From the NCBI GenBank assembly GCA_903813345.2, contig CAIIXF020000009.1:6752030-6816029 (forward strand): DNA of 64,000 bases, given 5' to 3'. Positions 237-27,100 of this stretch are shown in pieces. The position numbers and the translations under genes were made by a program. The stretch comes from Owenia fusiformis (Eukaryota; Annelida; Polychaeta; Sabellida; Oweniidae). The notes beneath the pieces were generated by a model. The model worked only from the letters and a program-made list of their open reading frames with translations, did no database searches and was not told where the DNA came from. Position 1 is the stretch's first letter, and every line of letters starts with the position of its first letter.

Positions 237-1198
237 CGGCGGTTCCAATATATTAGAAGTTACATTTTGAGTTCTATAATGCATTGAGGTAGGTATCTTA
301 AGTGTAAGGGGCGTAGATAATTCTCCCAAGTTGTAATCGTACAGGCAAATGTATGCGCTCGACACAGGACTATAGTCCTGGCACGGGATAAGGTTTTACT
401 GTACCTTACTACTGTTGATCCCAGGTTATTACTAGAATAATGTATGGCTGTTCATTGCTTTGTAATATTATTGATGCATTTATTTGTCTCTTGTGGTTTA
501 AGTGCTTTTAGACTAATATACTTAAATTGTTCATTATTGGATGATTCAGCAGATTATCATACTGAATTAGGATTTTTTCCGTCAATATGCAGTCCCACAT
601 GGAAAAACAAGTTCAAAAAGTCAGTTATAATTTTTCTTGAATTAACATGATTCATTTCTATGAAATTTGCTTCATTGTATCAATGATATTACTCTATTAC
701 AAACATGGACATTTATATCCCATCCGACAGATTTTTATTCAGCATATTTATAAGGCAACTCACTTTCAATCTTGATAAAATCATAATGTTTTTTCTGGCT
801 CAATGTACTATAGCGAACTGTGCATTTTTATCTCACCCTACTCTATTTAAACTGAATTTGAAAATTTTACTACATGTACAAGTTGTTTCTATTTTACACT
901 CTCTATCCTTCAGAGCCATTTAAAGTTTATACATGTACTTTAAAAGTTTTAATGCAGAAATAAAGTGCAATTCCATTCTTTTTGCATTTCGACAAGTAGA
1001 TTTTATCAGAAGCAATTAGAAAATGTCCAAGATCAATGTCAAGCAATAAGTAGTAGATATTCTTTGATTTGATTATTGAGATTATCAGTGTCATCCATGA
1101 GTGGATAGTGAATAGAAATAAATGTGCCTTTGTGAGTTTTAAAAACAGTTACTTCAATGTTCCCTTTTCTCTCCCCCTTTCTGTCCATGTACCCGTAT

Positions 1199-4100
1199 TT
1201 AACGCTTAACACCTTGAAGGTCTTGATTCTCCAGGTCGTTAAGTAGAATAAACGCAGATACTGGTGGATAGGTGTCACTGCCATCAATGCAACGTAACTC
1301 AACTTTTTCATCGGGAAATATGAGAAAGGCGTGGCTGATTCTGGTCTGTTGTAGTTGTTCCTTGTTACCCATCACTGAATGTGGCTGTAGTCATAGTTAA
1401 AAGACATGTATTTGAATCTCTGAAACAACTAAATTGCATTTATAAGACATTAAAGAAAATATTCACCATATTTTATCTATAATAATAGCGGTTGTTTTAA
1501 GAAGTATATTGAGCATATACATGTACTTTTTAAGTTCTCTTAGTACACTGTATAATGCTTATGGACCTTTTTATCTAGTGAGTTTGATGTCTTAACTAAC
1601 CCAAAAATTAGCAAACCTATTTCAAAAAAGTAACATGTAAGCATGTGTGATGACGATTTCATACTATTTTCTTTAATTTTCAATATTTATCAATTTTCCC
1701 CAACTCATTGCTGCATATAAGATTGTATTTGGTATTTCATTGAATTCACTAACTGTGGGTGGTAGTTTGCCAGATGTAAGCCTTGCCAGTATGTTGCCGG
1801 TTTGTAGGAGTAATGAGTCCCCCTTGTGCACCACTGGGACACTCTTGCCTGACATTGTCTTCACCTTTAAAAGAGGAGTAAATCACAGATAAAGAACAAA
1901 CACAATGATTGATTGAACATTTTTCTGCAATTCAAGTTCAATAGACCTTTCCAATAAACCCTGACCCCTATTTGTGAACCAAGGAAACTAGGGTATATTG
2001 GCTAGATTTATGATGTCATACTTAACAGGTAGTAATGTTTGAAAACAAAATTGAAAGAAGTTTTTGAAAATTGGCAATATTTTAATCCTATTTCTGCACT
2101 GAAATTGTAAGAATGACATCATAACGAATAAATGGCATGATTGGTCTATTGAATGTTGTTATTGGGAAATTGATTAGTTAATTAATTTTAAAGGCATTCT
2201 GTACATGCTGGGTACTGTAAAACCTGTCTAATCCAAATGCTCCTGGGGCTGGGACTGACTGACTGACCAAAAGGCTGTTCAGAAAGCCCATTTGCTGAGT
2301 TGTGTTTGGATGAGAAAGGTGATCTGATAATCAGATTTATGTGTAAATACCAAATGGTAATGTGGTATCTCATATTATTTGTCTCAAATATAATTGGCTT
2401 AATTGACTTACTGTAAGGCCATTAACATTTGCTTGGTGGAGGATAGTTATAATGCTCCTATCTTCGTGTTCATTTAATCTTACAACCTGGTCATCAATTG
2501 GAAAATCTTGAGGTACTTTTGGAAGCATATTTCCTCGCAAAGCACTCCCATTCATGCCAGGTGTATGGATATCTTCAATCATTTTGTTAAAGTAGTCCCG
2601 GTCCGTATGTAAAGGGAAAGTTAGCGCAGTGAGGACACGTTTGGCCAGTTTGAGTGATTCACCAAACAAGGCATTGTATGCTTCGTTGAATCCGGGTATT
2701 ATGTCATCAATGTTAAGAACAGATACCTACAAAAATATGTTTTCTTAAATTTGAGAGATATCATTTTCATCCATATGAGTCGAATCCATATCTCTGAAAA
2801 ACTTGTATATATCGTGTTTTCAGTCATTAATGAAATATGATAGTTAAAGGCATTGATCACCTTAATGGTCTCCCCATCATAAGTGCAACGGATTGAATGC
2901 CGCACCCTGATGCAACAAAAATAACACATGCCACCTTGTTGAAAATGTTAAAATAATATGTATTGAGATATTTTGACAATAATAGGTAAAAATTAGGATA
3001 AAATACTAAATAAACACCAAAAGTGCAAATTTAAAGTCCTTTTGCCCCATGGAGTCCCATGAAGTCCCAACAGGCCCCAGGGAACTTTATCAAGAGGTTG
3101 ATGCCCTATTAGTATATGACAACACCTGAAGAGGTTAAAGTGCATATTCTACCTGGGCTAATGACGGAACAAATCGTACGGAGCACACATATTCTGGATC
3201 AAATGTGTCTCCTGATGTGTCTTTTTTCAATAACACCATTCTAAATGAAAAAGTATTATAGAAAGTTGTGACATCACATTAATTAATCAAATTGATTACT
3301 ATAAATCAGAGAATCACTTTTTACCTCTCATTTATACAAGGAAGAGTGCAATGATGGTAAGTGATTTTTTGATATGAAAGTCGCTAGTTCCTTATGTTCG
3401 GAAATATTAAATTGCCTCCAAATTGAAGTTTCATGTTATTTTCAGGTACTAGATATAGTAACTCATTCAATACTTGACTTACACATAACTCATTCAATTC
3501 TTGACTTACTTTTTGGTAACAGTTTGAATGCCATGCTTTGTTGCGAATGAGTGTTTTACTATTCCCCCTTCTTCCCCATCCATATGAATATCACATTTTC
3601 CTTGGAATTCTTCGCCAAGTTTCATTGGTGCAAAATATGGAGCTATTTTCTCAAAGTCAAGTTTCTCTAGTTCACTTGTCACTCTTTCTGCAGCTTTTAC
3701 CTTTAGGAATAAAACAGCTAAATCAAGATCATAATTTATCAGATTTTTCAGTTTCATGGAGGACACATGTTTCAACGTAGAATGTGAACAGTTAGCTTAG
3801 AACATGTAGTGTAGAAATGAGTATCATTGAAACTAATGTGACTAATGTGAGGTAGTTCAATTATCGTAATTTTTTTTTGTCACATGGATTTACCATAGTT
3901 ATATGATTAATCATCAACAAAACAGTAGGTATAGCGACTCATTTACATGTTTGGGAAATACTGAAATGTTAAAAAATATCTAGTAGGAAACTAAAATGTG
4001 CATTTACCCCCCCCCCCCCTCAAACTGAACTGATTTAGTTCCCTGTCAGTCATTGATATTTTGATGCTGCTCCTTACATGACCTTCGTAGGTGTAAATCA

Positions 4101-4506
4101 AGAAACAAAAGATGTACAAAATGGAAGGTTTCCATAGTGTTCCATGAAAACAACAGGCAAAATTAATAGAAATCATAAATTTAACATGGAAAAATTGAAA
4201 AGTCCCTATCTAAAACAACAGGCGATTTTATGAAAACAACTGGTGAAAATTGCCTGTTGCCTGCTTCTAATGAAACCCCTTGTGTTATTAAATTAGGAAC
4301 AGTGATATGGAATAAGTATGTGTACTTACAACTTCTTCTGGAATTCCATGGTTTGTCAACAAGGCTGATGTGACGTCATATCGCTTGAAGGAATCAAAGA
4401 TGTCTTCACCAAGATCTCTCAAGTCATTGTCATCAATTTCAGCATCATCCAGTGTTATGTTGATCTTGGTGCAGTCAATTATTGGTAGTTCTGTTAGTTG
4501 TTCCAT
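1199..4506 (-). CDS. 2-oxoglutarate/Fe(II)-dependent dioxygenase, isopenicillin-N-synthase-like (copy 1)
   Basis: Six exons read on the minus strand: 4506-4330, 3700-3510, 3240-3153, 2726-2412, 1864-1754, 1384-1199. All have GT-AG borders and compatible phases, giving 355 residues. Exon 1 holds the DIOX_N-type start (LPIIDCTKI...LTNHGI, about residues 7-57). The catalytic double-stranded beta-helix follows: iron ligands His239 and Asp241 in NEHED, distal His296 in PHSVM, and the 2-oxoglutarate-binding RxS at Arg309-Ser311. The Asp-to-His spacing matches isopenicillin N synthase relatives. I start at the Met before EQLTEL because upstream in-frame sequence derives from a transposon at 4564-4735. 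Family knowledge supports a soluble non-haem iron oxidase using O2 and 2-oxoglutarate. The substrate is unknown; some family members oxidise without 2-oxoglutarate. No broken frame is seen. Confidence 0.9.
1939..2151. mobile_element. Small TIR element in intron 4 of dioxygenase copy 1
   Basis: CAATAGACC at the left and GGTCTATTG at the right are inverted. The corresponding place in L2 (near 21945) reads straight through without about 210 bp, so this is an insertion private to L1. There is no coding potential. Confidence 0.6.
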
Positions 4507-4563
4507 ATTATTAGCTGTTAAGGAAAGTGGTGTATTTGCACTAACATGTAATTGAAAAGTTCC

Positions 4564-4735
4564 CAGGCCTGTATCACCTTTTGCCAAGGGGGAGGGGTCA
4601 TGTTTGACCATTTTGGCCCAAATTCATTTGCGAAGTGCTCAGAATGGAGAAAAACTATATGGTTTTGAAATAATTGGTTAGGGAGAGAGAGGGGGCGGGG
4701 GAGTTTGGCTCGCAAGCCCTAAACTCCCCCTGGCC
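4564..4735. mobile_element. CAGGCCCG-family MITE, degraded, at the 5' end of copy 1
   Basis: It belongs to a family whose intact copies start CAGGCCCGTA and end in the inverted ACGGGCCTG (12962, 16846, 29079). The inner words GTGCTCAGAATGG and a run of G or C are shared. It sits just upstream of the dioxygenase start codon and is also present in L2 (25074-25236), so it predates the locus duplication and may contribute 5' UTR or promoter sequence. Confidence 0.65.
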
Positions 4736-4868
4736 AGTGACATGGGTCCCTAGTGCTCTATGTATCTTTTAGGAATGATTATATAGTGTAGTACAATATA
4801 TGTAACTAGAAAAGTGGATGTTAAAATTGCAATGAATGCTATATGATTTACCTTACTCAGTAAACATT

Positions 4869-4945
4869 TACCCTTTGCATTCGTTTGACTTTGCTTCTTA
4901 AAAGAGAGCTTTGTAGTAGTTTAACTAGACTCTGCACGCAGGGTA
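4869..4945. mobile_element. Short MITE, TACCCT family
   Basis: It starts TACCCTTTGCATTCGTTTGA and ends TCTGCACGCAGGGTA. The same ends in the opposite orientation bound the longer copy at 22640-23017, and another copy is at 58553-58660. It is an internally deleted, non-coding element. Confidence 0.6.
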
Positions 4946-5384
4946 GTAAACATTCCAGTTATTCCAGTAACCCGTAAACAATACTCCTCAAACCAGTCTA
5001 CATGCAAAAGTGTTCCTGATATATACCAACGAGTGTAGATTCTGGGCTTTAAATCCAATTATCACATAAGTTCTGTTGTATGTAGATTAGTATCATTCTG
5101 TATTCCCTCACTTGTAGAATATTCTGTTAACATTAGAAACTTACTTGAAGTTTTCAACTTAAGATAAACACTAACACACTTATTGCATATGCAGCCACTT
5201 GTATATTTTAAACTCATATGTCTCATAAATCATGAGATCAGATAGTGAAGTCAGACTATATAGGACACTTTGCCCTCATTACAGGAATACATGACTTACA
5301 TGTTTTTTAAAGTTTCCATTTAGGTTAACGTAATTGATATACCTAATTACCCAAATAATATACCTAATTGACCACTATGGTCCA

Positions 5385-5533
5385 CTTTTTGAAGATTCCA
5401 AGGGAGGGGGGTCACTTTTGACAACTTTGGCCCAAAAATAGCCAAAATCACCTAACATTGTGCTCAGTGTGAAAAGCTGCATTGTTTTGAAAGAATTATT
5501 GTTCCTCCCCCCCCCCCCTTGGCTACGGGCCTG
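5385..5533. mobile_element. CAGGCCCG-family MITE fragment (right end)
   Basis: It ends GGCTACGGGCCTG after a C-run. GTGCTCAGTGTGAAAA and TTTTGAAAGAATT are the family's inner words. The same fragment lies at about 27101-27231 in L2, so the insertion predates the locus duplication. The rest of 4946-5812 is conserved with L2 but shows no gene. Confidence 0.6.
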
Positions 5534-5849
5534 AAACTAGTACTAATACCCTGAGGACTGGCCTCGCAATATGATGGTTATTAAGTTTATGTCATACATG
5601 TATTTCATGAGGAAATAACAATATGAGTCCACCATTGGATAGTTGCATAAAGTACATCATATTGACTCCTGAGGGAGAAGACTCTCAATCACTTCTCCCT
5701 AGAGATCCAGGTTTCAAGTAACCTGACCTACCTACAGAAAATATAGGTAAATAGAGATTATCTTACACGTGAGGTTCAGGATATTGGGATTATTTCCTCT
5801 GACGTAAAGCTATTATATCGCTATTATATCGCTGCTTTATAAATAGAGA

Positions 5850-5984
5850 TTATCCTATATGAGGTTCAGGATATTGGGATTATCCCGAGGCCAATATAAT
5901 ATATCTGCCCGAGCTACGTCCCGAGGGTAGATATATTATATTGCCCAAGGGATAATCCAAATATCCTGAACCGACTATAGGATG
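5850..5984. mobile_element. Foldback element
   Basis: Two arms of roughly 60 bp are inverted around a short GC-rich centre: TATCC...GGTTCAGGATATTGGGATTA on the left, and ATCCAAATATCCTGAACC...GGATGA on the right. GGCAGATATACTATATCTGC near 6918 looks related, so 5850-6990 may be one composite element split by the piggyBac-like insertion. Confidence 0.55.
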
Positions 5985-6149
5985 ATCTGTTTATCCCATA
6001 CCAAACACATTGTTCAATTGGCCGAAGTTCAGAAACTTTGCAACCAACCGTAGAATTATTTTAAAATATTCATGTCCAGTTTTGTATTCTTGTTTCTTTT
6101 CCTGTTCTAATCTTTGATTATTAACAGGGCATACTGCATTTTCCCTTCT

Positions 6150-6904: not shown

Positions 6905-6990
6905 CGATTACGACGTAGCGGGCAGATATACTATATCTGCCCGCTTGGAGCGGTCAACAATTGTTGACCTCTCCTCTGGAGAGGTCAACA
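6905..6990. repeat. Pair of perfect short palindromes
   Basis: GCGGGCAGATATACTATATC-TGCCCGC is a near-perfect hairpin. It is followed by GGTCAACAATTGTTGACC and a further inverted GAGGTCAACAATTG. They abut the L2 boundary at 6996 and are probably the end of the composite element that begins near 5850. Confidence 0.5.
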
Positions 6991-8137
6991 ATTGTATACT
7001 GTACCTTCATTTCTTGATCCCATGTTATTACTAGAATAATATATGGCTGTTCATTGCTTTGTAATATTATTGTTGCATTTATTGGTCTCTTGTGGTTTAA
7101 GCAAGGGAAAGATCAATACCCGGTGATTTCAGCGGGAAGTGGCGTTTCGTTCAGTGGATGAGCTGCGCGCGCACGCATAAATGTGATTATCAATATTATT
7201 AGGGGAGGGATATTCAAGCTTATTTTCGTCATAGGCGCGACCCAGGGCTGTTGTCTTAAGGACATTTCGTTGAAAATTAGCCATTCGGCTGATAATTTGT
7301 AAGAGTTTTCGATCTTATAATGTATAACTGTTATTCAGACACATATTTTGACACGATTTTGTTGGAATTAAGCTTCGAACAGAGAGATATTCACAATTGA
7401 TATGCACATTTTTGGTTGTGCCATTGCTTTTCAATTGCACAATCCATGTATTGATAGAAGTAACCCGATGCAGATTGTTTTACCTTCAAAACATGGCGGA
7501 TTCACTACATATCGGTCTATTAAATACCATTTTGTGCCCTAAATAGTTTTATATTTCCATCACGGCCTGGGTGTGTTTGTCTCTTATGTGTATGCGTGTG
7601 AATTGGTGGGGCTGGTAGGGCCACCAATCCCCTAAACCCCGCCCATCCTTTATTCTACTTCCCACTTATTATAATTTATGCTGTAACATTAAGTGACTTC
7701 GCTGGAAAACAATAGGAATTATTTTTCTTGCCAATCAATCGTGAATCACAATCAAAATGTCAGAAAGGATCAATCAGGCAATCGTCTAAAATCCAAATCA
7801 AGTTATAACATTATATGATATTCAGCAAGAAGTCCGGTAGAAATAAGGAATATTTAAACATGAAAGCTGAAAGTTAAAAGCTAATCTGTCAATTTTCTGT
7901 CTGCAAAAGAACGTTTACATTTGACAAAATAAAAGACCAAGGCTTTGAAATCTAGGATTCCCCAGGAAAATATGACGTCATACTAATTAGCATAAGGATT
8001 TCCCTAGTGGTCTGGGTCGCGCATCGTCCGAAAACACAATCCGACAAATACATGCTAATTTCTAAGGAGATGGGAAGTGTATGACGTGTTTATCGATTTT
8101 GTTTAACGATTTAATCAATTATCAAATTGTTTAAGTG

Positions 8138-9689
8138 CCCAGCCTATCGTCAGGCGCAATATTGGTCAATATTTGAGGTCTACTTTTGGTCAACTCATGA
8201 GGCGTACTTCTGGTCTACTTTTGGTTTTTCTCTGTGTTAAATCCCCATAGTCAGGCGCGTTTCAAATATTTAAATTAAGCCAAAAGTAGACCAGAAGTAG
8301 ACCTCATTTAATGACCTCATCAGGTTTATCAGGTCTATATTTGAGGTCTAGACCTCATTTAAGCCTCAACTATCTGTAAATCAGGACTATATTTGAGGTA
8401 TACTTTTGGTCTACGCCTTATTTGAGGTTCACTATTGGTTTTCAGGTCTACTTCTCTTCTGCTTTTGGTGTACACCTTACGTTAAGGCACATTTCAATTA
8501 TGGAAATTAAGCCTTAAGGTCTACTTTTGGTCTAGACCTCATTTCAGGTACAAGCCTCATATACCTGTAAGTAAGGTCAGGTTATGTTTTGTTGTTTCAA
8601 GATAAAGTACTTAGTACATATCAGTACCCTCCATAGTTGTTAAATAAATTGCATTTATTTTGAATTGCTGTGTTGTTTTCTAGGATTAACTTGTCTCATG
8701 GATAAGATACAGATCTATGAACACATTAGAAAGATGAAGCAAAAATTACACAGTATTCTTATATAAATTATATGTAGGCTTCTAATATGATGTATTTTTG
8801 TTTCATCATTTAAATTTAACAATATTTCAATATTTTATTATTTTCAGACATCCTTCTTTAGGTTTCCCAGATTTTGATTATTTTTTTAAGTTCTGATAAA
8901 AACCATTAATAGGGAGTTGAAAATACAGTTTACTGGTCTGTTAACTGGTCTGTTAACCTAAAAATTACACAGTATTCTTATATTAATTATATGTAGGCTT
9001 CTAATATGATGTATTTTTGTTTCATCATTTAAATTTAACAATATTTCAATATTTTATTATTTTCAGACATCCTTCTTTAGGTTTCCCAGATTTTGATTAT
9101 TTTTTTAAGTTCTGATAAAAACCATTAATAGGGAGTTGAAAATACAGTTTACTGGTCTGTTAACCTAATATATTATAATCTGTCTCCTTCGTGATTCTGA
9201 CAAAATACTACAGTAAGTGTGGCTTTTTCAGATTTATGTTTTCTAAGTTTTTAAAAAAATTCTATGTTTATCAGGTCTAGATTTGGTCATTTTATAAATG
9301 TTTAAGTTTTTAAGGCGCAGTTTTGGTCTATACACCTGTCAGTGAGGTCTATTCTAAAATGTTCTTAGTTTATCAGGTCTAGATTTGGTCATTTTGAAAA
9401 TTGTTCAAGTTTTTCAGGCGCACTTTTGGTCTATACGCCTTACAGTGAGGTCTATTCTAAAATCTTCTAAGTAAATGTGGTTTAGATTTGGTTTTTAAGG
9501 CGCAGTTTTGGTCTATACGCCTGAAAATAAGGTCTATAACTGGAATTATTGTGAGTAAATGAGGCTAGGTTTTGGTCTAAGCCTTAAAAATACCTGTAAA
9601 AGAGGCATACTTTTAGTCTAGACCTGAAAGTAAGGCGCATTTAAGGTTAACTTTTGGTCTACGCCTCAAAAACCTGATGATAGGCTGGG
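8138..9689. mobile_element. 1.55-kb TIR element with TG target duplication, nested
   Basis: The ends are inverted CCCAGCCTATCGTCAGG and CCTGATGATAGGCTGGG. TG is present on both sides (8136-8137, 9690-9691). Unit B shows the empty site GTTTAAGTGGATAAAG at 14644-14659. Outer parts are filled with many divergent copies, in both orientations, of AGGTCTACTTTTGGTCTA. The middle carries a 219-bp direct duplication (8742-8960 and 8961-9165). No coding potential is visible and I cannot place its superfamily. Confidence 0.8.
8742..9165. repeat. 219-bp direct duplication inside the 1.55-kb element
   Basis: AAAATTACACAGTATTCTTA starts at 8742 and again at 8961. The following 200 bases are essentially identical, down to TTTACTGGTCTGTTAACC. 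The near-identity points to a recent event or copying. Confidence 0.85.
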
Positions 9690-9867
9690 TGGATAAAGTG
9701 GTCACACTTGCTTCAATTCATAGCGTAATCGACGGATAGAAACTGCACCGAATTCCCGATATCCTACCCCGTATTATGTAGGCTATAACCACAGTGACCT
9801 GCAGATGGCGCTATCACAAACAAGTACTGCACGAACCGATAAATTCCCGGGTATTGTAACGCCCTTG

Positions 9868-10628
9868 GTTTAAGTGCTTTTAGACTAATACACTTAAATT
9901 GTTCATTATTGGATGATCCAGTAGATTATCATACTGAATTAGGAATTTTTTCCGTCAATATGCAGTCCCACATGGAAAAACAAGTTCAAAAAGTCAGTTA
10001 TAATTTTTCTCGAATTAATATGATTTATTTATATGAAATTTGCTTCAGTGTATCAATGATATTACTCTATTACAAACATGGACATTTGTATCCCATCTGA
10101 CAGATTTTTATTTCGCATATTAACAAGGCAGCTCAGTTTCAATTTTGACAAAATCATAATGGTTTTTCTGGCTCATCGTACTATAGCGAACTGTGCATTT
10201 TAATCTCACGTTACTCTATTTGAACTGAATTTGAAAATCTTACTACATGTTACAACATAGATGTTGTACTTCTATTTTATACTATCTATCCTTCAGTTAG
10301 TGCCATTTAAAGTTTATAATTTAAAAGTTTTAATGAAGAAATAAAATGCACCTCTATTCTTTTTGCACTTTGACAAGCAGATTTTATCAGAAGCAATTAG
10401 AAAAATGTCCTAGATCAATGTGAAGCAATAAGTAGTAGATATTCTTTGATTTGATTATTGAATGTGGCTGTAATCATTAGTTAAAAGACATGTATTTGAA
10501 TCTCTGAAACAACTAAATTGTATATAGCATGTATAATACATGTACATGATTGTATTCTTGATTTTGAAGCCCTCTAATCGGAGGATGAATAATAAGTAGT
10601 AGATATTCTTTTTTTGATTTTTGAGATA
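9868..10628. repeat. L2 host flank between two insertions, with a relic of exon 6
   Basis: This continues the L1-like 3' flank (compare 499-1075). At 10455-10520 it contains a stray copy of the exon-6/intron-5 border of the dioxygenase gene (GAATGTGGCTGTAATCATTA, compare 1376-1395), followed by a short CGGAGGATG MITE end near 10575. No gene is present. Confidence 0.6.
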
Positions 10629-10879
10629 CAGTCAAGCCAAGTAACTAAGTCAACATTCGAAAAAATCTCAAAAATCGTACATCTTTGATTTCCAAAATAA
10701 TTTGTGAAGTGGTTATTAAGATGATAATACATCTTTTAGCGTATTAATTTTGAGTACATCTTGAATCCATTCTCAACAAAGCTTTGTCTAAATAAGGATT
10801 CGAAATATTTGAGCTCGGGATGATAAAAGTACGTTAAGATATACCGCTCCTTAACAAACTCCTTTGGGAACAAGATATA

Positions 10880-11959
10880 CAGGGTGGGCCAAAAAAAAGT
10901 TCACCCTTTTTCATTTTAATCTCATTTTTTTTATTTTTGATGCAATCCCTTAAAAAATTGATATGTAGATAACTGACACATTTCTAAACAAGGTCGATAT
11001 ATAACATTAGGTGTGTCTTTGGCTGTTTTGTTTTTAAAGTAAATGTTCAATATGTCCTCCTTGTTCCTGCACAACCAGTTTTAGTCTATGACGCCATTTA
11101 TTTATTGCCGCGTTAATTGATCGTTGTGATAATTGTTCCCAACATAAAGTTATTCTTTGTTGGAGTTCTTGAACTGAATGGATGGGAACACTATGAACAT
11201 GTTTTTCTAGTTCACCCCACACAAAATAATCCATAACATTGAGATCAGGGCTATTTGGGGACCATAAGTCAGGGGGGATAAAATCAGGTGCATTGGCATG
11301 CAAGAACTCCATTGTCGCTTTAGATGTGTGCGAGGGAGCCCCATCGTGTTCGAATATGTAGTTTGGATTGATGCGATTCATATCCTTTAATAAGGACTTT
11401 TTTAGCACTCTGTCTATATATTATGTAGAATTTAATAACTTATTCATTTGTAATTATATCATAAGTGTATTACATAAAACCATCAAACTATTATCAATAT
11501 TGTGAACGTAAAAATGAGGAAAATTGGATAAAACCATGGATTTTCAGTAACTTGTTGACCAACTCATCTATGGTAGTATCGGGTGTTTATAAGAGTACTT
11601 AATTGTTTGAAGAGGTGTTTATCATCAACTCTGACTATTAATTAACACTCTACTTTGTAATATTTTGCATTAACTGATATAAAAATTATATTTACCATGA
11701 TAACTTCTTTTCAAATTTCCCTCCTTTTTTGAAATCCGCCATTTTGTAAATGAAGTGAATTTCTGGTTTTTTTCTCATGACACACCATAAATATATTTTA
11801 GGTGTCATGACAACACTGTTGCATAAATTTCACTCAAATCCTAACAACATGTACAGAAATGTCTGAGCTATATACATATCAATTTTTAGAGGCATTGCAT
11901 CAAAAATAAGAAAATTAGATTAAAATGAAAAAGGGTGAACTTTTTTTTGGCCCACCCTG
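10880..11959 (-). mobile_element. mariner-type transposon, 1,080 bp
   Basis: The ends are inverted CAGGGTGGGCCAAAAAAAAG and CTTTTTTTTGGCCCACCCTG, and the match extends with few differences over about 68 bp. TA is duplicated at both sides (10878-10879, 11960-11961). Unit B has the empty site CAAGATATAGAATC at 15837-15850. It carries the tail of a transposase gene (11034-11408, minus) but lacks the first part, so it is deleted and non-autonomous. Confidence 0.92.
11034..11408 (-). pseudogene. mariner transposase, C-terminal fragment
   Basis: The 124-residue frame shows the second and third catalytic positions of a Tc1/mariner DDE transposase: Asp in EHDGAPSHTS and Asp in SPDLNVMDYF, with 37 residues between (DD37D, as in the maT group). 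It ends QEQGGHIEHLL, a common mariner tail. The N-terminal DNA-binding region and the first catalytic Asp are missing, and sequence upstream on this strand (11409-11880) has no matching frame. Within the family this enzyme would cut and join transposon ends; this fragment cannot. Confidence 0.9.
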
Positions 11960-12961
11960 TAGAATCAAATGCATTATTCTTCTTATTTACTCCCTGACAC
12001 ATGCCAACGAATGTTACATCAGTTAATATCTCCGTTTTAAATAATTTTGTAAAACGTTGTTCTCTACAGGTGCCATTATTACAATTGAAAAACAAAATTG
12101 AACATTTTGCATTTCTAAATTGATAAGTTTCTTGGAATACAACTTACACCCCGGGTGATCAATATCCTGTGTTCCGAATTTCGTTCCAGCAAGTCAATGA
12201 CCCGAGTTGTGTTTTTACTGAATCCCGATAAATATGGCGTCTCGTTCGTCACTGGACGAGCCAGGTGACGAAAATGTGTCAAACAAATCAGATAGCATAA
12301 GGTAAGAATGAATATAGAGTAATGCATTCGGTGCTGGAATATGTTTTCAACATGTTCCTAAACGATTATCCATATGTGTAGGCTATTAATGCAAATCGAA
12401 GCATGAAACCAACATGACCCAATTCGAAAAGCTCGCAGAAAACGATATCAGCGAGTCGTTCTTTGCCTTCTGTAAGTAATGATGGATACTCTGAGCATTG
12501 TATAACTGTAAAGTATACCTTATTAGTATGTCTCAACTTGTGCTATGTTTGAATCCAAGCTATTATCTTTCATAAGCGTCATAGAAGTCGTTGAAAGATA
12601 TATTCCATTCTACCGAATAGGAATAGTCATTGTCCCGAAGCTACAGAATAAGATTATATATATTTTGTATACTTTTGAGAATCCATTCATGAATACATCA
12701 AGCTAATTTGGTGCTACCTTTCTTGTTATTATTTTACAAATTCAAGATCGAATTTCCCTGTATATTGATTTCCACATTGGCATTGAACTGCAAATACAGG
12801 GTCTCCCAAAAAGTGTACCCACTTTATAGAAGGAATATAACTATTCAAAAAAATTGAACTTTTCACATGATTAGGATGCTCTCAATTAGATTTTTAAAAA
12901 TAAAAATGTGTGCAAATCAAAACATTGCATTGCTGTCTGGTACAACCACGATGACCATTTA

Positions 12962-13258
12962 CAGGCCCGTATCCAGGATTCACCATTGGGGAGCGGTTTT
13001 ACCAAGGGTGGAGTTTTTGCCAAGGGGGGGGGCTTTTTGACAGTTTTGATAGCACGATCGTATGTATAGTATCAGTATCTCAATGATAATACCTCAATTT
13101 GAGGTTTATTTGAGCCTAGCCTTCTACTATAAGTATGATCTGGCTGGCATCTGTTGTTTTGGCAAAAAATCATGTGAAAAGTGCTCAGAATGGTGAAAAA
13201 CTGCAAGTTTTTGAGAGAATTTCTGACCAGGGGCCCCCCCCTCCTATCTGCGGGCCTG
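12962..13258. mobile_element. CAGGCCCG-family MITE (unit A copy)
   Basis: Inverted ends are CAGGCCCGTATCCAGG and CTGCGGGCCTG. The inner words GTGCTCAGAATGGTGAAAA and TTTTTGAGAGAATTTCTG are shared with copies near 4600, 5450, 16846, 25074, 27101, 29079 and 42489. It is non-coding. Confidence 0.75.
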
Positions 13259-13616
13259 ATTTAATAAATTATGCATGGATCCTGCCATCACCTTAGCAAT
13301 GCTATCGTGAAAGTCTGGTGTGACCGTCGCCTTTATGTGACATTTATGGCTTACTTAGTGAAGACTTTTTAGCCTGTTGTCAATATTATTATTATTATAT
13401 TTTTATGGGTAAATTGTAATGCCTACTCTAACAGTGACAACATTGAAATATATTACAATACCTGGCATATACCTGCTATATGATATGCTATATTTTTTGT
13501 CAATCCCTGGTTTTTGTGACAATGTTAAAATATATCATAAAAATGCCTGCTACAGTATATGGCTGTTCATTGCTTTGTAATATTATTGTTGCATTTATTG
13601 GTCTCTTGTGGTTAAG

Positions 13617-14827
13617 CAAGGGAAAGATCAATACCCGGTGATTTCAGCGGGAAGTGGCGTTTCGTTCAGTGGATGAGCTGCGCGCGCACGCATAAATGTG
13701 ATTATCAATATTATTAGGGGAGGGATATTCAAGCTTATTTTCGTCATAGGCGCTACCCAGGGCTGTTGTCTTAAGGACATTTCGTTGAAAATTAGCCATT
13801 CGGCTGATAATTTGTAAGAGTTTTCGATCTTATAATGTATAACTGTTATTCAGACACATATTTTGACACGATTCTGTTGGAATTAAGCTTCGAACCGAGA
13901 GATATTCACAATTGATATGCACATTTTTGGTTGTGCCATTGCTTTTCAATTGCACAATCCATGTATTGATAGAAGTAACCCGATGCAGATTGTTTTACCT
14001 TCAAAACATGGCGGATTCACTACATATCGGTCTATTAAATACCATTTTGTGCCCTAAATAGTTTTATATTTCCATCACGGCCTGGGTGTGTTTGTCTCTT
14101 ATGTGTATGCGTGTGAATTGGTGGGGCTGGTAGGGCCACCAATCCCCTAAACCCCGCCCATCCTTTATTCTACTTCCCACTTATTATAATTTATGCTGTA
14201 ACATTAAGTGACTTCGCTGGAAAACAATAGGAATTATTTTTCTTGCCAATCAATCGTGAATCACAATCAAAATGTCAGAAAGGATCAATCAGGCAATCGT
14301 CTAAAATCCAAATCAAGTTATAACATTATATGATATTCAGCAAGAAGTCCGGTAGAAATAAGGAATATTTAAACATGAAAGCTGAAAGTTAAAAGCTAAT
14401 CTGTCAATTTTCTGTCTGCAAAAGAACGTTTACATTTGACAAAATAAAAGACCAAGGCTTTGAAATCTAGGATTCCCCAGGAAAATATGACGTCATACTA
14501 ATTAGCATAAGGATTTCCCTAGTGGTCTGGGTCGCGCATCGTCCGAAAACACAATCTGACAAATACATGCTAATTTCTAAGGAGATGGGAAGTGTATGAC
14601 GTGTTTATCGATTTTGTTTAACGATTTAATCAATTATCAAATTGTTTAAGTGGATAAAGTGGTCACACTTGCTTCAATTCATAGCGTAATCGACGGATAG
14701 AAACTGCACCGAATTCCCGATATCCTACCCCGTATTATGTAGGCTATAACCACAGTGACCTGCAGATGGCGCTATCACAAACAAGTACTGCACGAACCGA
14801 TAAATTCCCGGGTATTGTAACGCCCTT
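13617..14827. mobile_element. hAT-like element (copy in unit B, uninterrupted)
   Basis: This 1,211-bp copy of the element at 7102-9867 lacks the nested insertion. The ends CAAGGGAAAG and CGCCCTTG are intact. One T of the left GGTTTAAG flank has been lost here. Confidence 0.8.
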
Positions 14828-16029
14828 GGTTTAAGTGCTTTTAGACTAATACACTTAAATTGTTCATTATTGGATGATCCAGTAGATTATCATACTGAAT
14901 TAGGAATTTTTTCCGTCAATATGCAGTCCCACATGGAAAAACAAGTTCAAAAAGTCAGTTATAATTTTTCTCGAATTAATATGATTTATTTATATGAAAT
15001 TTGCTTCAGTGTATCAATGATATTACTCTATTACAAACATGGACATTTGTATCCCATCTGACAGATTTTTATTTCGCATATTAACAAGGCAGCTCAGTTT
15101 CAATTTTGACAAAATCATAATGGTTTTTCTGGCTCATCGTACTATAGCGAACTGTGCATTTTAATCTCACGTTACTCTATTTGAACTGAATTTAAAAATC
15201 TTACTACATGTTACAACATAGATGTTGTACTTCTATTTTATACTATCTATCCTTCAGTTAGTGCCATTTAAAGTTTATAATTTAAAAGTTTTAATGAAGA
15301 AATAAAATGCACCTCTATTCTTTTTGCACTTTGACAAGCAGATTTTATCAGAAGCAATTAGAAAAATGTCCTAGATCAATGTGAAGCAATAAGTAGTAGA
15401 TATTCTTTGATTTGATTATTGAATGTGGCTGTAATCATTAGTTAAAAGACATGTATTTGAATCTCTGAAACAACTAAATTGTATATAGCATGATTGTATA
15501 ATACATGTACATGATTGTATTCTTGATTTTGAAGCCCTCTAATCGGAGGATGAATAATAAGTAGTAGATATTCTTTTTTTTGATTATTGAGATACAGTCA
15601 AGCCAAGTAACTAAGTCAACATTCGAAAAAATCTCAAAAATCGTACATCTTTGATTTCCAAAATAATTTGTGAAGTGGTTATTAAGATGATAATACATCT
15701 TTTAGCGTATTAATTTTGAGTACATCTTGAATCCATTCTCAACAAAGCTTTGTCTAAATAAGGATTCGAAATATTTGAGCTCGGGATGATAAAAGTACGT
15801 TAAGATATACCGCTCCTTAACAAACTCCTTTGGGAACAAGATATAGAATCAAATGCATTATTCTTCTTATTTACTCCCTGACACATGCCAACGAATGTTA
15901 CATCAGTTAATATCTCCGTTTTAAATAATTTTGTAAAACGTTGTTCTCTACAGGTGCCATTATTACAATTGAAAAACAAAATTGAACATTTTGCATTTCT
16001 AAATTGATAAGTTTCTTGGAATACAACTT

Positions 16030-18269
16030 ACACCCCGGGTGATCAATATCCTGTGTTCCGAATTTCGTTCCAGCAAGTCAATGACCCGAGTTGTGTTTTT
16101 ACTGAATCCCGATAAATATGGCGTCTCGTTCGTCACTGGACGAGCCAGGTGACGAAAATGTGTCAAACAAATCAGATAGCATAAGGTAAGAATGAATATA
16201 GAGTAATGCATTCGGTGCTGGAATATGTTTTCAACATGTTCCTAAACGATTATCCATATGTGTAGGCTATTAATGCAAATCGAAGCATGAAACCAACATG
16301 ACCCAATTCGAAAAGCTCGCAGAAAACGATATCAGCGAGTCGTTCTTTGCCTTCTGTAAGTAATGATGGATACTCTGAGCATTGTATAACTGTAAAGTAT
16401 ACCTTATTAGTATGTCTCAACTTGTGCTATGTTTGAATCCAAGCTATTATCTTTCATAAGCGTCATAGAAGTCGTTGAAAGATATATTCCATTCTACCGA
16501 ATAGGAATAGTCATTGTCCCGAAGCTACAGAATAAGATTATATATATTTTGTATACTTTTGAGAATCCATTCATGAATACATCAAGCTAATTTGGTGCTA
16601 CCTTTCTTGTTATTATTTTACAAATTCAAGATCGAATTTCCCTGTATATTGATTTCCACATTGGCATTGAACTGCAAATACAGGGTCTCCCAAAAAGTGT
16701 ACCCACTTTATAGAAGGAATATAACTATTCAAAAAAATTGAACTTTTCACATGATTAGGATGCTCTAAATTAGATTTTTAAAAATAAAAATGTGTGCAAA
16801 TCAAAACATTGCATTGCTGTCTGGTACAACCACGATGACCATTTACAGGCCCGTATCCAGGATTCACCATTGGGGAGCGGTTTTACCAAGGGTGGAGTTT
16901 TTGCCAAGGGGGGGGGGCTTTTTGACAGTTTTGATAGCACGATCGTATGTATAGTATCAGTATCTCAATGATAATACCTCAATTTGAGGTTTATTTGAGC
17001 CTAGCCTTCTACTATAAGTATGATCTTGCTGGCATCTGTTGTTTTGGCAAAAAATCATGTGAAAAGTGCTCAGAATGGTGAAAAACTGCAAGTTTTTGAG
17101 AGAATTTCTGACCAGGGGCCCCCCCCCCCCCCCCCCTCCTATCTGCGGGCCTGATTTAATAAATTATGCATGGATCCTGCCATCACCTTAGCAATGCTAT
17201 CGTGAAAGTCTGGTGTGACCGTCGCCTTTATGTGACATTTATGGCTTACTTAGTGAAGACTTTTTAGCCTGTTGTCAATATTATTATATTTTTATGGGTA
17301 AATTGTAATGCCTACTCTAACAGTGACAACGTTGAAATATATTACAATACCTGGCATATACCTGCTATATGATATGCTATATTTTTTGTCAATCCCTGGT
17401 TTTTGTGACAATGTTAAAATATATCATAAAAATGCCTGCTACAGTATGTGCAATGTGGATTGTGAAATGACCATTCTTTGAAGGTGTTGCAACATAGTCT
17501 CATAATTTACACATGTTGTATTGTACTCTCATCCTCTGATGTGTGTGGCCTCTTGACAATTTTCACATATTTTAACATGGGAAATCCTCAATTAATCAAA
17601 TCCACTACTCATTTATTAATTACTCAGACTAGAAAAAAATCAGTCAAGTTGGCAAAGTATCAATATTATCAAATGCATTCAATTCTTATTTTTGATAAAT
17701 TAAGATATCACACGTGAGTATACACTGCTTCTGTTCATTATGATTCAATAGTCTATAAGCATTTATCCATGAAGTGCGTCGGAACACTGGCGATTCCTAT
17801 TCGGTACTATGGAATATATCTTATTATGCCTTCTAGGACGCTTATGCAAAGAAATGGTTTACATTCACTGGAAGCACGAGTTGGTACATACTTTGAACGT
17901 CTACCCAGCAATTATACCATGATAACAGTTTATCTCATTAACTAACAGAAGGTCAAAAACTGCTCGGTGACATACTTTCCAGCGAGCGTTGAAAATGAGG
18001 TCACGTTTACTTATGCTTCGATTAGCAGTAATGCCCAACGCATATGGATAAACAACTAAGAAAATGTTGCTAACATATTTAGGCACCGAATGCGCCACTC
18101 TATATTCAGTCTTACCTTATGCTGTCAGAAAGTTTTGAATAATTGTCGACATCAACATCGTCTGTTGTCAAATTAGCCGCCATATTTGTCGGGATTCAGT
18201 AAAACACAACTCGGGTCACTGACTTGCTGGAACGAAATTCGGAACACAGGATATTGATCACCCGGGGTG
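16030..18269. mobile_element. Element with about 0.5-kb inverted ends
   Basis: CCCCGGGTGATCAATATCCT at about 16033 returns inverted at 18247-18269. Similarity continues inward for roughly 500 bp on each side (16033-16520 against 17775-18269), with the right arm more diverged. The left arm also occurs in unit A (from about 12150). No transposase is seen. Open frames in the arms at 12115-12327 and 15999-16211 look alike only because they are duplicated. Confidence 0.6.
16846..17153. mobile_element. CAGGCCCG-family MITE (unit B copy)
   Basis: This is the unit B counterpart of 12962-13258. It differs mainly by a longer C-run near 17120. Confidence 0.75.
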
Positions 18270-19814
18270 AACTTAACTGTTAACGATTTAAGTCATTAAT
18301 AATATTTCCCTCAGTGATCCCATGCTAAATAGACAGTAACTAGGTTATTATTTTGTGTTCAACCTTGTTTTCATGACTTTTAAACATGAGTCGACAATTA
18401 TGTAGGAAATTTCAATTCCAAATGTAAGCGTGTGAACTCCTGTTTTTGCACAAAATTTAGCCTTTTATAAAGATAGATCGCCAAAATCTGCATGTACCTC
18501 TCAATGAGGCGACACATTTTTAAATTTATAGATGCTGAGCTCTAAACTCAAACAAAAATTCAAACCACCCGCTATTATTTTGATTACACAAGACGAAATT
18601 TCCACTCCCGGGGAGCACTGTGGTAACACTTTGAAGGAGGATTCTTGAAAAAAACGTTCGAATTTTCACAAAAGGTTTCACGCAGTTTTATTGCTTTGTT
18701 TAAGCCTCGACTAAAATCATACTCAAATCCGATACCATAATTATAAATTAAAATGAAACATTAAACTCAGGTCAGGTTATATGATAAACCGTTTCGAGAA
18801 TTGATGATTTGAGTTAACTGTGTATATTTAAATAAATGAAAGTCGGCATGTATTCAACAGTTAATGTAGACACATGATGTATGCATCCACGTGTGACTTA
18901 AATATCAATGCATGACTATCATATTTGGCTTTCAAAAATTAAGTTGGAAGTTACAGTGGTTGGAGATTAACGAAAACGTCAGTCACATTCGAATATCCGA
19001 ACGACGTCAAGTATTAACAATACCCTTTTTGTGCATCTCGAACAAGGCAAGGTTCTGTGATCCAGCAATGTGCATTCCGAAAGAAAAAATTCACAAATAT
19101 CAACAAATTTCATTGAGTTGGATATTACATTCGAAATCACAACTTTCGAAATGTTTGTTTTAAACAAGAATTGTAAGAACTTAAAACATGTTGTTAGTTT
19201 TTTAAACCGCATATCCTCATTTACGTTCTTTGACAAGGATGAATTCATTTGAAAACATGGATTTTCTTGATTATTCTTCAAAACTACCCTTGAAATATAA
19301 GTGTGTGGGATATTACAGTGTAAATTGACACGCATTTGTTTCCTCCATGTCATGAAAAAATAAATGCAGTACCATCTTTCAATATTTGAAAACAAAAAGT
19401 TCATTCTGTGTGTAAACAAGAAAAAATACATTTATGGTTGATTCATAATGAAAAATGACAAATAACATACATGTTTTTAAGTAGGGGTATACAGGGACAT
19501 AGTGGAAATTCAGAAATTTAGGCCATATCCCAAAGACTGCTTCACCAATATATAACAGAACATCAAATTTATCATTTACACGTTTGCTGATAGGTTTATT
19601 GAAAATAATTAAACAGAGGTTTACTTCAATTGTGGCACCATTCTTAGTTAATATTGATGGACATACGAATATCGAATGTTGACTAAGTTACTTGGCTTGA
19701 CCGATAATCAGTTTCATCTATGAGTGGATAGTGAATAGAAATAAATGTGCCTTTGTGAGTTTTCAAAACAGTTTGTTCAATGTTTCCCTTTCTCTTCCCT
19801 TTCTGTCCATGTAT

Positions 19815-22800
19815 TCAATGCTTAAGACCATGAAGGTCTTGATTCTCAAGGTCGTTCAGTAGAATAAATGCAGATACCGGTGGATAGGTGTCACTGCCAT
19901 CAATGCAGCGTAACTCAACTTTTTCATCGGGAAATATGAGAAAGGCGTGGCTAATTCTGGACTGTTGTAGTTGTTCCTTGTTACCCATCACTGAATGTGG
20001 CTGTAGTCATAGTTAAAAGACATGTATTTGAATCTCTGAAACAACTAAATTTATAAGACATTAAAGAAAATATTCACCATATTTTATCTATAATAGCGGT
20101 TGTCTTAAGAAGTATATTGAGCATATACTTTTTATCGCACTTTGAAAAAGTGCTATATTGTCGTCGTCTTGTGCTGTTGGGTGGGCGTGCGGGCGGGCGG
20201 GACATAAACCAAATCTTGTCATCAAATTTCCAGGATAACTGCTTACCTGTTCAACTTGAAATTTTTACAGATGCAAGAGCAGACTAGTACCAAGATCTGA
20301 TTAGGTTAAGGGCATGCTGGGTAAACTATGTGGCGGCCATTTTGAATTTTTCAACAAATCTTGTCATCAAAATTTCAGGAAAACCACTTATCCGTTCAAC
20401 TTCAAATTTTTACAGATGCAAGAGCAGACTATTGCCAAGATCTGATTAGGTTTTGGGTATGCTGGCTGAATTACATGGTGGCCATTTTGAATTTTTGAAT
20501 TTGGCGGCCATTTTGAATTTTTCAACTTGCTCTAAATTGACCAAATTTTTTTTTTAAAAACATCTACAAGTTCTCAGAAGTTCAAATCTGACCTTAGATT
20601 TCAGATTTGACCTTTCATTCACCTTCAGTGACCTTGAAAAGGTCAAAAAAGTTGATTTTCTAAATTGATATTTTGGATTTAAATTTAGGTCAGCTTAATT
20701 ACAAAACACCTACTGAGGTCTGAAAAAGTGAAATTTTCAAGGTCGAAATTCAAGGTCATTAAACTAGGTCACAAATGATGTTATCCAAGTTTCTCAAAGT
20801 TTGAGACTACAAATCAATTCTTGTCATCAAAATTCCAAGAAAACCTCTAACCTGTTCAACTTGAAATTTTTACACATGCAATAGCAGACTAGTGCCAAGA
20901 TCTGATTAGGTTAAGGGCATGCTGGGTAAACTATGTGGTGGCCATTTTGAATTTTTCAACAAATCTTGTCATCAAAATTCCAGGAAAACCACTTATCCGT
21001 TCAACTTGAAATTTTTACAGATGCAAGAACAGACTATTGCCAAGATCTGATTAGGTTTTGGGTATGCTGGCTGAATTACATGGTGGCCATTTTGAATTTT
21101 TCAATTTGGCGCCCATTTTGAATTTTTCAACTTGCTCCAAATTGACCAAATTCTTTTTTTAAAAACATCTACAAGTTCTCAAAAGTTCAAATCTGACCTT
21201 AGATCAAAAATTTGATTTTCTAAATTGATATTTTGGATTTAAATTTAGGTCAGCTAATTACAAAAGACCTACTGAGGTCTGAAAAATTTTCAAGGTCGAA
21301 GGTCATCAAATTAGGTCACAAACAATGTTATCTAAATTTTCCCAAAGTTCAAGACTACAAATAAATTCTTGTCATCAAAATTGCAGGAAAACCGCTAACC
21401 TTGTCAACTTGAAATGTTTACAGATGCAAGAGCAGACTAGTGCCAAGGTCTGATTAGGTTTTGGCCATGCTGGGTAAATTGCATGGTGGCCAGTTTGCTC
21501 TTCAAAGTGCGATATTTATCACTGTGTGTCTTGTTAAGTTCTCTTAGTACACTGTATCATGCTTATGGAGCTTTTCATTGAGTGAGTTTGATGTCTTAAC
21601 AAATCCCAAAATTATCAAACCAATTTCAAAGAGGTAACATGTAAACATGTGTGATGACGATTTCATACTATTTTCTTTAATTTTCAATATTTATCAATTT
21701 TCCCCAACTCATTGCTTCATATAAGATTGTATTTGGTATTTCATTGAATTCACTAACTGTGGGTGGCAGTTTGCCAGATGTGAGCCTTGCCAGTATGTTG
21801 CCAGTTTGTAGTAGTAATGAGTCCCCCTTGTGCACCACTGGGACACTCTTGCCTGACATTGTCTTCACCTTGAACAGAGTGGTAAATAACAGATAAAGAA
21901 CAAACACAATGATTGATTGAACATTTTTCTGCTATTCAAATTCAATGGGATGTTGTTATTGTGAAATTGATCAGTTAACCATTTCCCGACGTGAATACAA
22001 GAGAAAAATGTTGGCCTATTAGTGACAGATAAGAAAGAGCGGTTTTTAGGTAAAAACTGGATATGACGTATACCTTGGGACCTATACTTAAAATTTTATC
22101 ACTAAAATACAATTTTAATAAACATTATCTCATGTCAATAACTTGTTAAAATTTGTTGTAAAAATACTGAATAGAACTGGAGATTTCTTTGATGTATGCA
22201 AATAAAAATAGTGGTGCCAAAATGAGCCAATCATCCTGAAAGGTATAAATACGTAATAGAGCTCCATATGGAGCCTATTGTCATGAAAAGGTTAAGGCAA
22301 TCTGTACATACTGGATACATTTAAACCTGTCTTATCCAAATGCCCCTGGGACTGGGTCTGGCCAAAAGTGTTTAGAAAGCCTATTTGCTTCAAGGTTTGT
22401 AATTAGTGAGTAGATGGAAGATATCAAAATTGGAACCAAGAAAAAGTTTTCTCTGAGCAGTGATCTCCACAGGATTTTTTCTCAAGTAGATCAAAATTAG
22501 TCAAAATATGCCGATTTTTCATGATTTTTCTCATTTTCAAGTGGTTGCAAAATTCTCAGGTGGGTGCAAGCCTATTTTCAAAATCGCAGGTGGATGCTGC
22601 GCCCACTTGCTTGAATGCTGGGGGGATCACTCCTGAGTTTACCCTGCATGCAGAGTCTAGTTAAACTATACTCTGCCTAGTAGAGACCATATTACAGTTT
22701 AGTAGCCCCACCCCCACGACGGGTACCGGTGACAGTTTGGGTAATAAATCACTTCTGACCTACGCACTGACCTTTCTTCCACCAATCAGCGAGCTTGAAG

Positions 22801-25798: not shown

Positions 25799-27100
25799 AC
25801 CACATAGTGTGGGGCCATATTGTCGGCCTAGGCGCGTCTGTCTGTCCGTCCGTCCGTACGTCCGGCAGTTTTCTCCAAAACCGCCACAGATATCACCTTC
25901 AAATTTTCAGGGATAACTTATGAGTGCATCTAGATGTGGATGAAAAAAATTTAAGTGGATACCTACTTCCTGTCGGCCATTTTGAAGTCAAATGCTAAAA
26001 TCCTTGTCTGCAAACTTTAAGAAAAATGGCTTCACAGCTGCTTTTGAAACTTTAATATCTTGTTCAGCTCACTTCATTCTACATCTGATTAGGTTTTGGA
26101 CCTGTTAGCTCAGTCATGTCAGCCATTTTGAATGTTTTAAGAAAAGTTAGCGCGCGATAATACTTTGTATCATATTGAATGGTGTTTTTCAATTTTCATA
26201 CTTTAACTATTTAGTAGCTTTATAAATAATTTCAGGTGTACTTTGTTGTAAAAGCCTATGTTATTGTTAACAGTAGTAATATGTGATAATTTTGTAAAAG
26301 GAAATCAGCAAAAACTCATAATCACTTTTTTATTGTCGGCCATTTTGGATTTTTCCGTCCTAAAATCTTGTCTGTAAAGTCTTGTCTACACGTTTTCAGG
26401 TGAACCGTTTGGTAGATCAATTACAAATTTTCAGGGATGATTCTTAGTATGAAAATCTAGATCTGATTAGTTTTTGGTCATTCTGGGTAAATGTCAATGC
26501 AGCCATTTTGGATTTTCCGTCCTAAAATCTTGTCTGTAAAGTCTTGTCTACGCATTTCCAGGTGAACTGTTTGGTAGATCAATTTCAAATTTTCAGGGAT
26601 GATTCTTAGTATGAAAATCTAGATCTGATTAGTTTTTTGGCATTCTGGATAAATGTCAAGGCAGCCATTTTGGATTTTCATCTTAAAATCTTGCCCGTAA
26701 AGTCTTGTCTACGCATTTTTAGGTGAACCGTGTGGTAGATCAATTTCAAATTTTCAGGGATGATTCTTAGTATGAAAATCTAGTTAGTTGTTGGGCATTC
26801 TGGGTAAATGTCGAGGCAGCCATTTTGTATTTTCCATCCTGAAATCTTGTCTGTAAAGTCTTGTTTACATGTTTTCTGGTTAACTGTGTGAGGGATCAAT
26901 TTCAAATTTTCAGGGGTGGCTCTTAGTAATAAAATCTAGGACTGACTAATTTTTGGGCATTTTGGGTCAATTTTAAGGTGGCCATTTTGGATATTCCCTC
27001 CTCAAATTGTGTCGGTAAAGTCTTGTCTACTCATTTTTAGGATAACCATTTGACGGGATCACCCAAAGGTGGGGACATTTTGTACACATTTGTGTTCTTG
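25799..27100. mobile_element. Modular transposon, CCACATAGTGTGGGGC family
   Basis: L1 reads GTCCACTTTTTGAAG where L2 reads GTCCACT, then 1.3 kb, then TTGAAAGATTCC, so this is an insertion. It begins CCACATAGTGTGGGGCCAT followed by a GTCTGTCCGTCCGTCC run. It then repeats a block of about 170-190 bp (AGTCTTGTCTAC, AGGTGAACCG, TTCAGGGATGATTCTTAGTA, GCCATTTTGGATTTTCC) four or five times. The same start recurs at 55880. It is non-coding; the superfamily is uncertain. Confidence 0.7.

Follow-up and report, generated by a model that had tools for sequence, protein, structure and literature searches.

The window, by which we mean the whole 64-kb stretch of DNA analysed here, was compared with itself. 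Collinear blocks between a copy termed L1 and a region termed L2 (6997 to about 27776) revealed an older duplication. Inside L2, two head-to-tail copies, the tandem units A and B, were detected, and several transposable elements are inserted in and around them. The features are collected in Table 1.

Table 1. Duplicated units, transposable elements, junction and hairpins at the locus (window positions; TSD, TIR and L1/L2 as used in the text).
Feature	Position	Strand	Size, ends and remarks
L1, older paralogous copy	397-5813		Empty sites for the hAT-like and the 30-bp-TIR elements
Two near-perfect hairpins	6917-6995 (6917-6945, 6957-6995)		Adjoining the left edge (6997) of L2 homology; left tandem breakpoint 45 bp away
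Tandem unit A	7040-13555	+	6.5 kb, or 3.9 kb when the two A-only inserts are left out; from self-comparison blocks, alignment and junction
Tandem unit B	13556-17447	+	3.9 kb; both A-only inserts absent; from self-comparison, alignment and junction
Tandem junction	13556-13558		3-bp microhomology TAT, equal to 7040-7042 and 17445-17447; no N
hAT-like element, A copy	7102-9867		1.21 kb without insert; CAAGGG...CCCTTG; TSD GTTTAAG (7095-7101 / 9868-9874); empty in L1 at 494-502
hAT-like element, B copy	13617-14828		Left TSD lacks one T
1,552-bp element, A only	8138-9689		Inside the hAT-like element; TSD TG (8136-8137 / 9690-9691); empty site 14651-14652 in B
Filler	10462-10590		129 bp; 94% identical to L1 1376-1442 over about half its length; also in B
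1,080-bp mariner-like element, A only	10880-11959	-	Inside the 30-bp-TIR element; TSD TA; empty site 15844-15845 in B
30-bp-TIR element, complete copy	15595-19703		Extends past the end of B; 4.1 kb including nested inserts; TSD ATA; second copy of the left part in A from 10629; L1 empty near 1080-1083
Nested long-TIR (foldback-like) element	16031-18269		2.24 kb, in the 30-bp-TIR element; CACCCC...GGGGTG; TSD AACTTA (16025-16030 / 18270-18275); left part in A from 12147
308-bp hAT-like miniature element	16846-17153		Lies within the long-TIR element; ends CAGGCCCG...CGGGCCTG; TSD ATTTA; present in A as well

L1 and L2 differ at no fewer than 6.2% of sites (161 of 2,616). This figure is a lower bound, since it was taken from 6 of the 21 comparison rows, namely the longer pieces of about 90% identity that are A-side or unique, and the rows left out were pieces of 68-86% identity, short pieces and redundant B-side duplicates. 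On the minus strand of L1, the open stretch 2370-2726 is 2OG-Fe(II) oxygenase-like (Pfam PF03171, score 25.2 bits, cut-off 23), with thymine dioxygenase as the best solved relatives (E=0.014). Scans of the window for tRNA genes and with Rfam gave no matches. Together with the several mobile elements, these features mark the DNA as eukaryotic and most probably that of an invertebrate. Two minisatellites in L2, a 145-bp one at 20206-21504 and a 162-bp one at 26337-27052, have a motif in common. Elsewhere in the window, neighbouring arrays of satellite-like units of about 183 bp were found at 34029-35558 and 36500-38503. Their consensus units look mutually inverse, and the GC skew is +0.20 at 34001-36000 and -0.22 at 36001-38000. 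A further array, at 44799-46517, consists of a 42-bp unit repeated 41 times at 97%. One of its frames is open for 496 codons (45040-46530), which may be coding or may be due to chance, 42 being a multiple of three.

Units A and B are linked by three collinear blocks: 7040-8137 with 13556-14652 (99.5% identity), 9689-10879 with 14650-15845 (99.4%), and 11960-13561 with 15844-17450 (98.7%, lowered by indels). The same blocks are about 90% identical to L1. Judged by their length and identity (1.1-1.6 kb at 98.7-99.5%), chance cannot account for them. The earlier note had proposed aligning A with B and estimating the divergence outside the insertions as a check. The base-level alignment gave 3,866 matches and 10 mismatches. 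One mismatch, at 8138, was dropped from the count as it is the first base of the 1.55-kb insert, leaving 9 substitutions in 3,875 aligned sites, a divergence of 0.23% (95% CI 0.11-0.44%). In addition, six small indels were kept from ten printed events, the other four being spurious gaps at the edges of inserts or the ends of blocks. The six comprise a T in the left hAT target repeat, four changes within homopolymer runs of T, G or C or in a TAT repeat (a single T, a single G, ten C and TATTAT), and TGAT, which lies elsewhere. L1 polarises three of the A/B differences: the change at 10233 and the TSD deletion belong to B and the change at 10620 belongs to A, so that the changes are not limited to one unit. 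The side-by-side tandem copies with filled and empty sites that the earlier note had described are thus seen in the collinear blocks and in the alignment, as well as in the exact empty sites of B described below.

Both units contain a hAT-like element. Its target duplication is a clean 7 bp, or 8 bp (GGTTTAAG) when one base is trimmed from the right end, and L1 is empty at this position, in agreement with the insertion and the 7-8 bp duplication proposed before. The 1.21-kb element contains no stop-free stretch longer than 73 codons and is probably non-autonomous. The 30-bp-TIR element is likewise absent from L1, where the empty site reads GAGATTATC in place of the expected GAGATAATC, one base being changed. 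Its right end is single-copy because the right breakpoint of the tandem duplication, 17447, falls inside the element.

Further layers had been missed in the earlier list, which named the hAT-like, 30-bp-TIR, 1.55-kb and mariner elements, all four of which are present. The long-TIR element has arms of about 495 nt (16031-16525 and 17776-18269) with 76% identity overall; the outer 88 nt are 2.3% diverged, and divergence is 22-35% further in. Both the long inverted arms and the target duplication that mark foldback or long-TIR elements were thus found. Each arm carries a 23-codon ATG frame that ends in a donor-like GTAAGA, at 16118 (+) and 18183 (-), the two converging as in two-gene elements. 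We dropped the idea of two real genes: with 35% divergence between the arms, the putative exon seems less conserved than the next three stretches (22%, 32% and 22%). A homology noticed by eye between the left end of the hAT-like element and the long-TIR element (GATCAATAYCC; TGGCGTYTCGTTC) was also discarded as too weak, the local alignment scoring 33 against 19, 27 and 28 for other pairings. Nested in the long-TIR element lies the 308-bp miniature element, with related fragments near 4611, 25125, 27149, 29114 and 42513. A dispersed repeat with GTGCTCAGAATGG-like sequence was observed at these five positions and at 13157 and 17042; it is possibly one miniature element family. The third layer missed in the earlier list is the filler. 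It sits between two copies of a flank that resembles L1 1045-1082, which measure 35 and 37 bp in A (10427-10461 and 10591-10627).

Two elements are restricted to unit A. Both are flanked by clean 2-bp duplications, and both have exact empty sites in B. The 1,552-bp element has 17-bp TIRs, CCCAGCCTATCRTCAGG, with one mismatch, and its empty site in B reads TTTAAGTGGATAAAG. It contains a single stop-free stretch of at least 45 codons and is non-autonomous. It also carries 23 GGTCTA motifs, counted on both strands, where 0.6 would be expected from base composition. Within it, a 219-bp tandem repeat (8741-9164; 205 bp at 99.5%) is probably recent. The 1,080-bp element is a defective mariner-like element with the TIR CAGGGTGGGCCAAAAAAAAGTTCACCC. 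Unit A reads GATATA/CAGGG...CCCTG/TAGAATC at this site where B reads GATATAGAATC, which gives a TA duplication. Its inverted arms extend over 108 nt at 90.7% identity including the TA, and the first 43 bases are identical. A 128-residue open stretch on the minus strand is a transposase remnant, which phmmer matched to Sleeping Beauty (E=9.3e-08) and to Mos1 (E=0.0089). Pfam DDE_3 was matched at E=0.00048 with 20.4 bits, under the cut-off of 28.6. The second and third catalytic acids are both D, with a spacing of 37 by hand count, the Mos1 alignment having a 3-residue gap there. IS630/Tc1/mariner elements with such a DD37D triad are called maT-like. A lone mariner-like end, ACAGGGTCTCCC, occurs once per unit, at 12796 and 16680, with no exact partner end in the window.

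At the tandem junction, exactly the three bases TAT are common to the junction and both parent sites. Among 200,000 pairs of positions drawn at random from the window, 6.7% reached a microhomology of at least 3 bp. The shared bases are weak support for a real duplication. The junction is seamless, and the N count of the window is zero. None of the identified element ends was found at 13556, 7040 or 17447. Together, the microhomology, the missing N and the missing transposon end modestly favour a real duplication. The right breakpoint lies between the arms of the long-TIR element, so that long inverted arms surround it. At the other side, the twin hairpin had a DNA folding energy of -38 kcal/mol, compared with -11.3 +/- 2.7 in 200 shuffles. 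An end of the long-TIR element, folded alike, did not outperform its shuffles (z +1.30), since 186 of the 200 equalled or surpassed it. The 64 kb contain five hairpins of the grade of the twin hairpin, with 1.0% of all positions no more than 60 bp from one of them. The older L1/L2 duplication begins beside the second of the twin hairpins and the young tandem duplication 45 bp away. For this reason the hairpin could be pictured as a recurrent hotspot which, jointly with the inverted arms surrounding the right breakpoint, would repeatedly break or stall replication and copy the locus. We regard this idea as quite doubtful. As the association was noticed in hindsight and at two duplication edges, we treat it as no more than a lead. 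To the left of the L1/L2 boundary lies a 142-nt imperfect palindrome (5847-5988), and near it 5894-5920 matches the hairpin region 6912-6936 in inverted orientation.

From the sequence, the order in which the L1/L2 duplication was followed by the hAT-like and 30-bp-TIR insertions, and these by the tandem duplication, can be read off, because A and B have both elements in common and L1 has the empty sites. This part of the order given in the earlier note mostly stands. Nesting places the long-TIR element after the 30-bp-TIR element and the miniature element after the long-TIR element. The hAT-like, 30-bp-TIR, long-TIR and miniature elements and the filler all predate the tandem duplication, because each is present, whole or as its left part, in both units. 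For the long-TIR element, the miniature element and the filler, the order is based on nesting or on the absence of the filler arrangement, there being no independent L1 empty site of that kind, and the relative order of the hAT-like element, the 30-bp-TIR element and the filler is not fixed by the sequence. The remaining step in the earlier note, that the A-only elements entered after the duplication, is not strictly implied, because an exchange between filled and empty alleles or a false joining of haplotypes gives identical letters. It is the simplest reading and a likely one.

The account that we narrowly favour is that about 3.9 kb inside L2 were truly duplicated in tandem, after the shared insertions and before the two A-only insertions. 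L2 first received the hAT-like element, a repair-type filler and the 30-bp-TIR element, then the long-TIR element inside the latter and the miniature element inside the long-TIR element. The duplication would have linked a site between the long-TIR arms with one immediately left of the hAT-like element by way of the 3 bp of microhomology, most likely by end joining or by replication template switching. Later, the 1.55-kb non-autonomous element and the defective mariner-like element would have entered unit A by cut-and-paste. Besides the high A/B identity, the exact empty sites and the seamless junction, this account is supported by the strong twin hairpin near the left breakpoint, the inverted arms about the right one and the presence of polarised changes in either unit.

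This account has to be weighed against a false heterotype duplication, a risk already raised in the earlier note, in which A and B are two haplotypes of one locus that the assembler placed in series. Filled and empty sites next to each other at low divergence are what two alleles would give, and two alleles of one locus can also differ by two large insertions and only 9 substitutions. The outermost A/B differences, 56 bp (first) and 116 bp (last) inward of the unit ends, are unremarkable in this respect, as they fit a serialised allelic bubble equally well as a real duplication. According to the available text of PMC9516828, such errors occur in heterozygous regions and are sometimes joined by unsupported sequence; an assembly gap between the copies is described there as the most frequent situation, but not the only one. 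As in those cases, A and B are adjacent, near-identical and different in the manner of alleles; unlike the usual case in that text, no gap of N separates them. The lack of N in the window lowers the possibility but does not remove it, and the microhomology, which an arbitrary join would reach at the rate given above, is not decisive. We consider such an artefact unlikely, though to be taken seriously. A real duplication could instead have arisen by unequal exchange between homologous chromosomes, a filled allele recombining with an empty one, so that the insertions predate the duplication. The pattern of letters would be identical, and neither the empty sites nor the alignment separates this route from later insertion. 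However, it requires both insertions on one allele and neither on the other, and with no junction homology beyond 3 bp the exchange would also have to be non-homologous, which makes it decidedly unlikely.

Precise excision, the alternative offered in the earlier note, would have the insertions precede the duplication and B lose both afterwards. The exact empty sites in B would fit, but two footprint-free losses by two unrelated families are needed, and mariner excision usually leaves a footprint. We therefore hold this alternative to be very improbable. One breakpoint is 62 bp away from the start of the hAT-like element, which recalls duplication by alternative (reversed-ends) transposition, a mechanism described for maize Ac in the available text of PMC3744419. 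There, the junction adjoins a transposon end with a TSD. As no identified element end lies at the junction or at either parent site, this mechanism was rejected on the junction sequence and its probability is close to nil.

If the duplication is real, as we favour, the locus gives a relative and partly resolved order of six transposable-element insertions, one filler and two duplications from sequence alone. A mariner-type element and a TG-duplicating element would then have moved within the time of 0.23% divergence. The recent transposition proposed in the earlier note is a fair reading of this small difference and of the exact empty sites. If the units are an artefact, the locus illustrates how an insertion history can be mimicked by two haplotypes. 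Neither outcome alters current understanding. All components resemble known kinds, and the whole is an ordinary kind of genome history. The exact TIR patterns of the 30-bp-TIR, mariner, long-TIR and 1.55-kb elements matched no stretch in viral contigs, and that of the 30-bp TIR matched none in bacterial and archaeal genome contigs. A peptide pattern of the transposase remnant matched 10 stretches in bacterial and archaeal genomes and 5 in viral contigs, none of which was confirmed by tblastn. Absence from these collections says little. In the literature, all of the matches listed for the TIR letters concerned only the ten-letter CCCAGCCTAT, and none was on transposons by title.

The elements compare with known systems as follows. 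The hAT-like element recalls the hAT superfamily in its target duplication of 7-8 bp and its short imperfect ends; it differs in lacking a long open reading frame, and its clean duplication is 7 bp, reaching 8 only with one end trimmed. The 1,080-bp element has the TA target duplication, the long TIRs and a DDE remnant in common with DD37D elements of IS630/Tc1/mariner. It differs in that 128 residues are present, the rest of the transposase not being seen among its open stretches. The filler resembles the repair-mediated capture of nearby DNA in PMC2671141, where the available text gives a median of 147 bp for the proximal class and a TSD range of 4-21 nt. Its flanking repeat of 35-38 bp is longer than this range, and for half of the filler no donor was found here; its size of 129 bp is near that median, and the donor lies about 300 bp away in L1 order. 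For the duplication itself, the closest comparison drawn is with microhomology/microsatellite-induced replication in yeast, described in the available text of PMC2518615 as producing duplications at 5-10 bp of microhomology or in low-complexity DNA, with hotspots that are reused. The present case has 3 bp. It shares with the yeast duplications, as they are described there, the direct tandem copies, the few shared junction bases and the vicinity of transposable elements.
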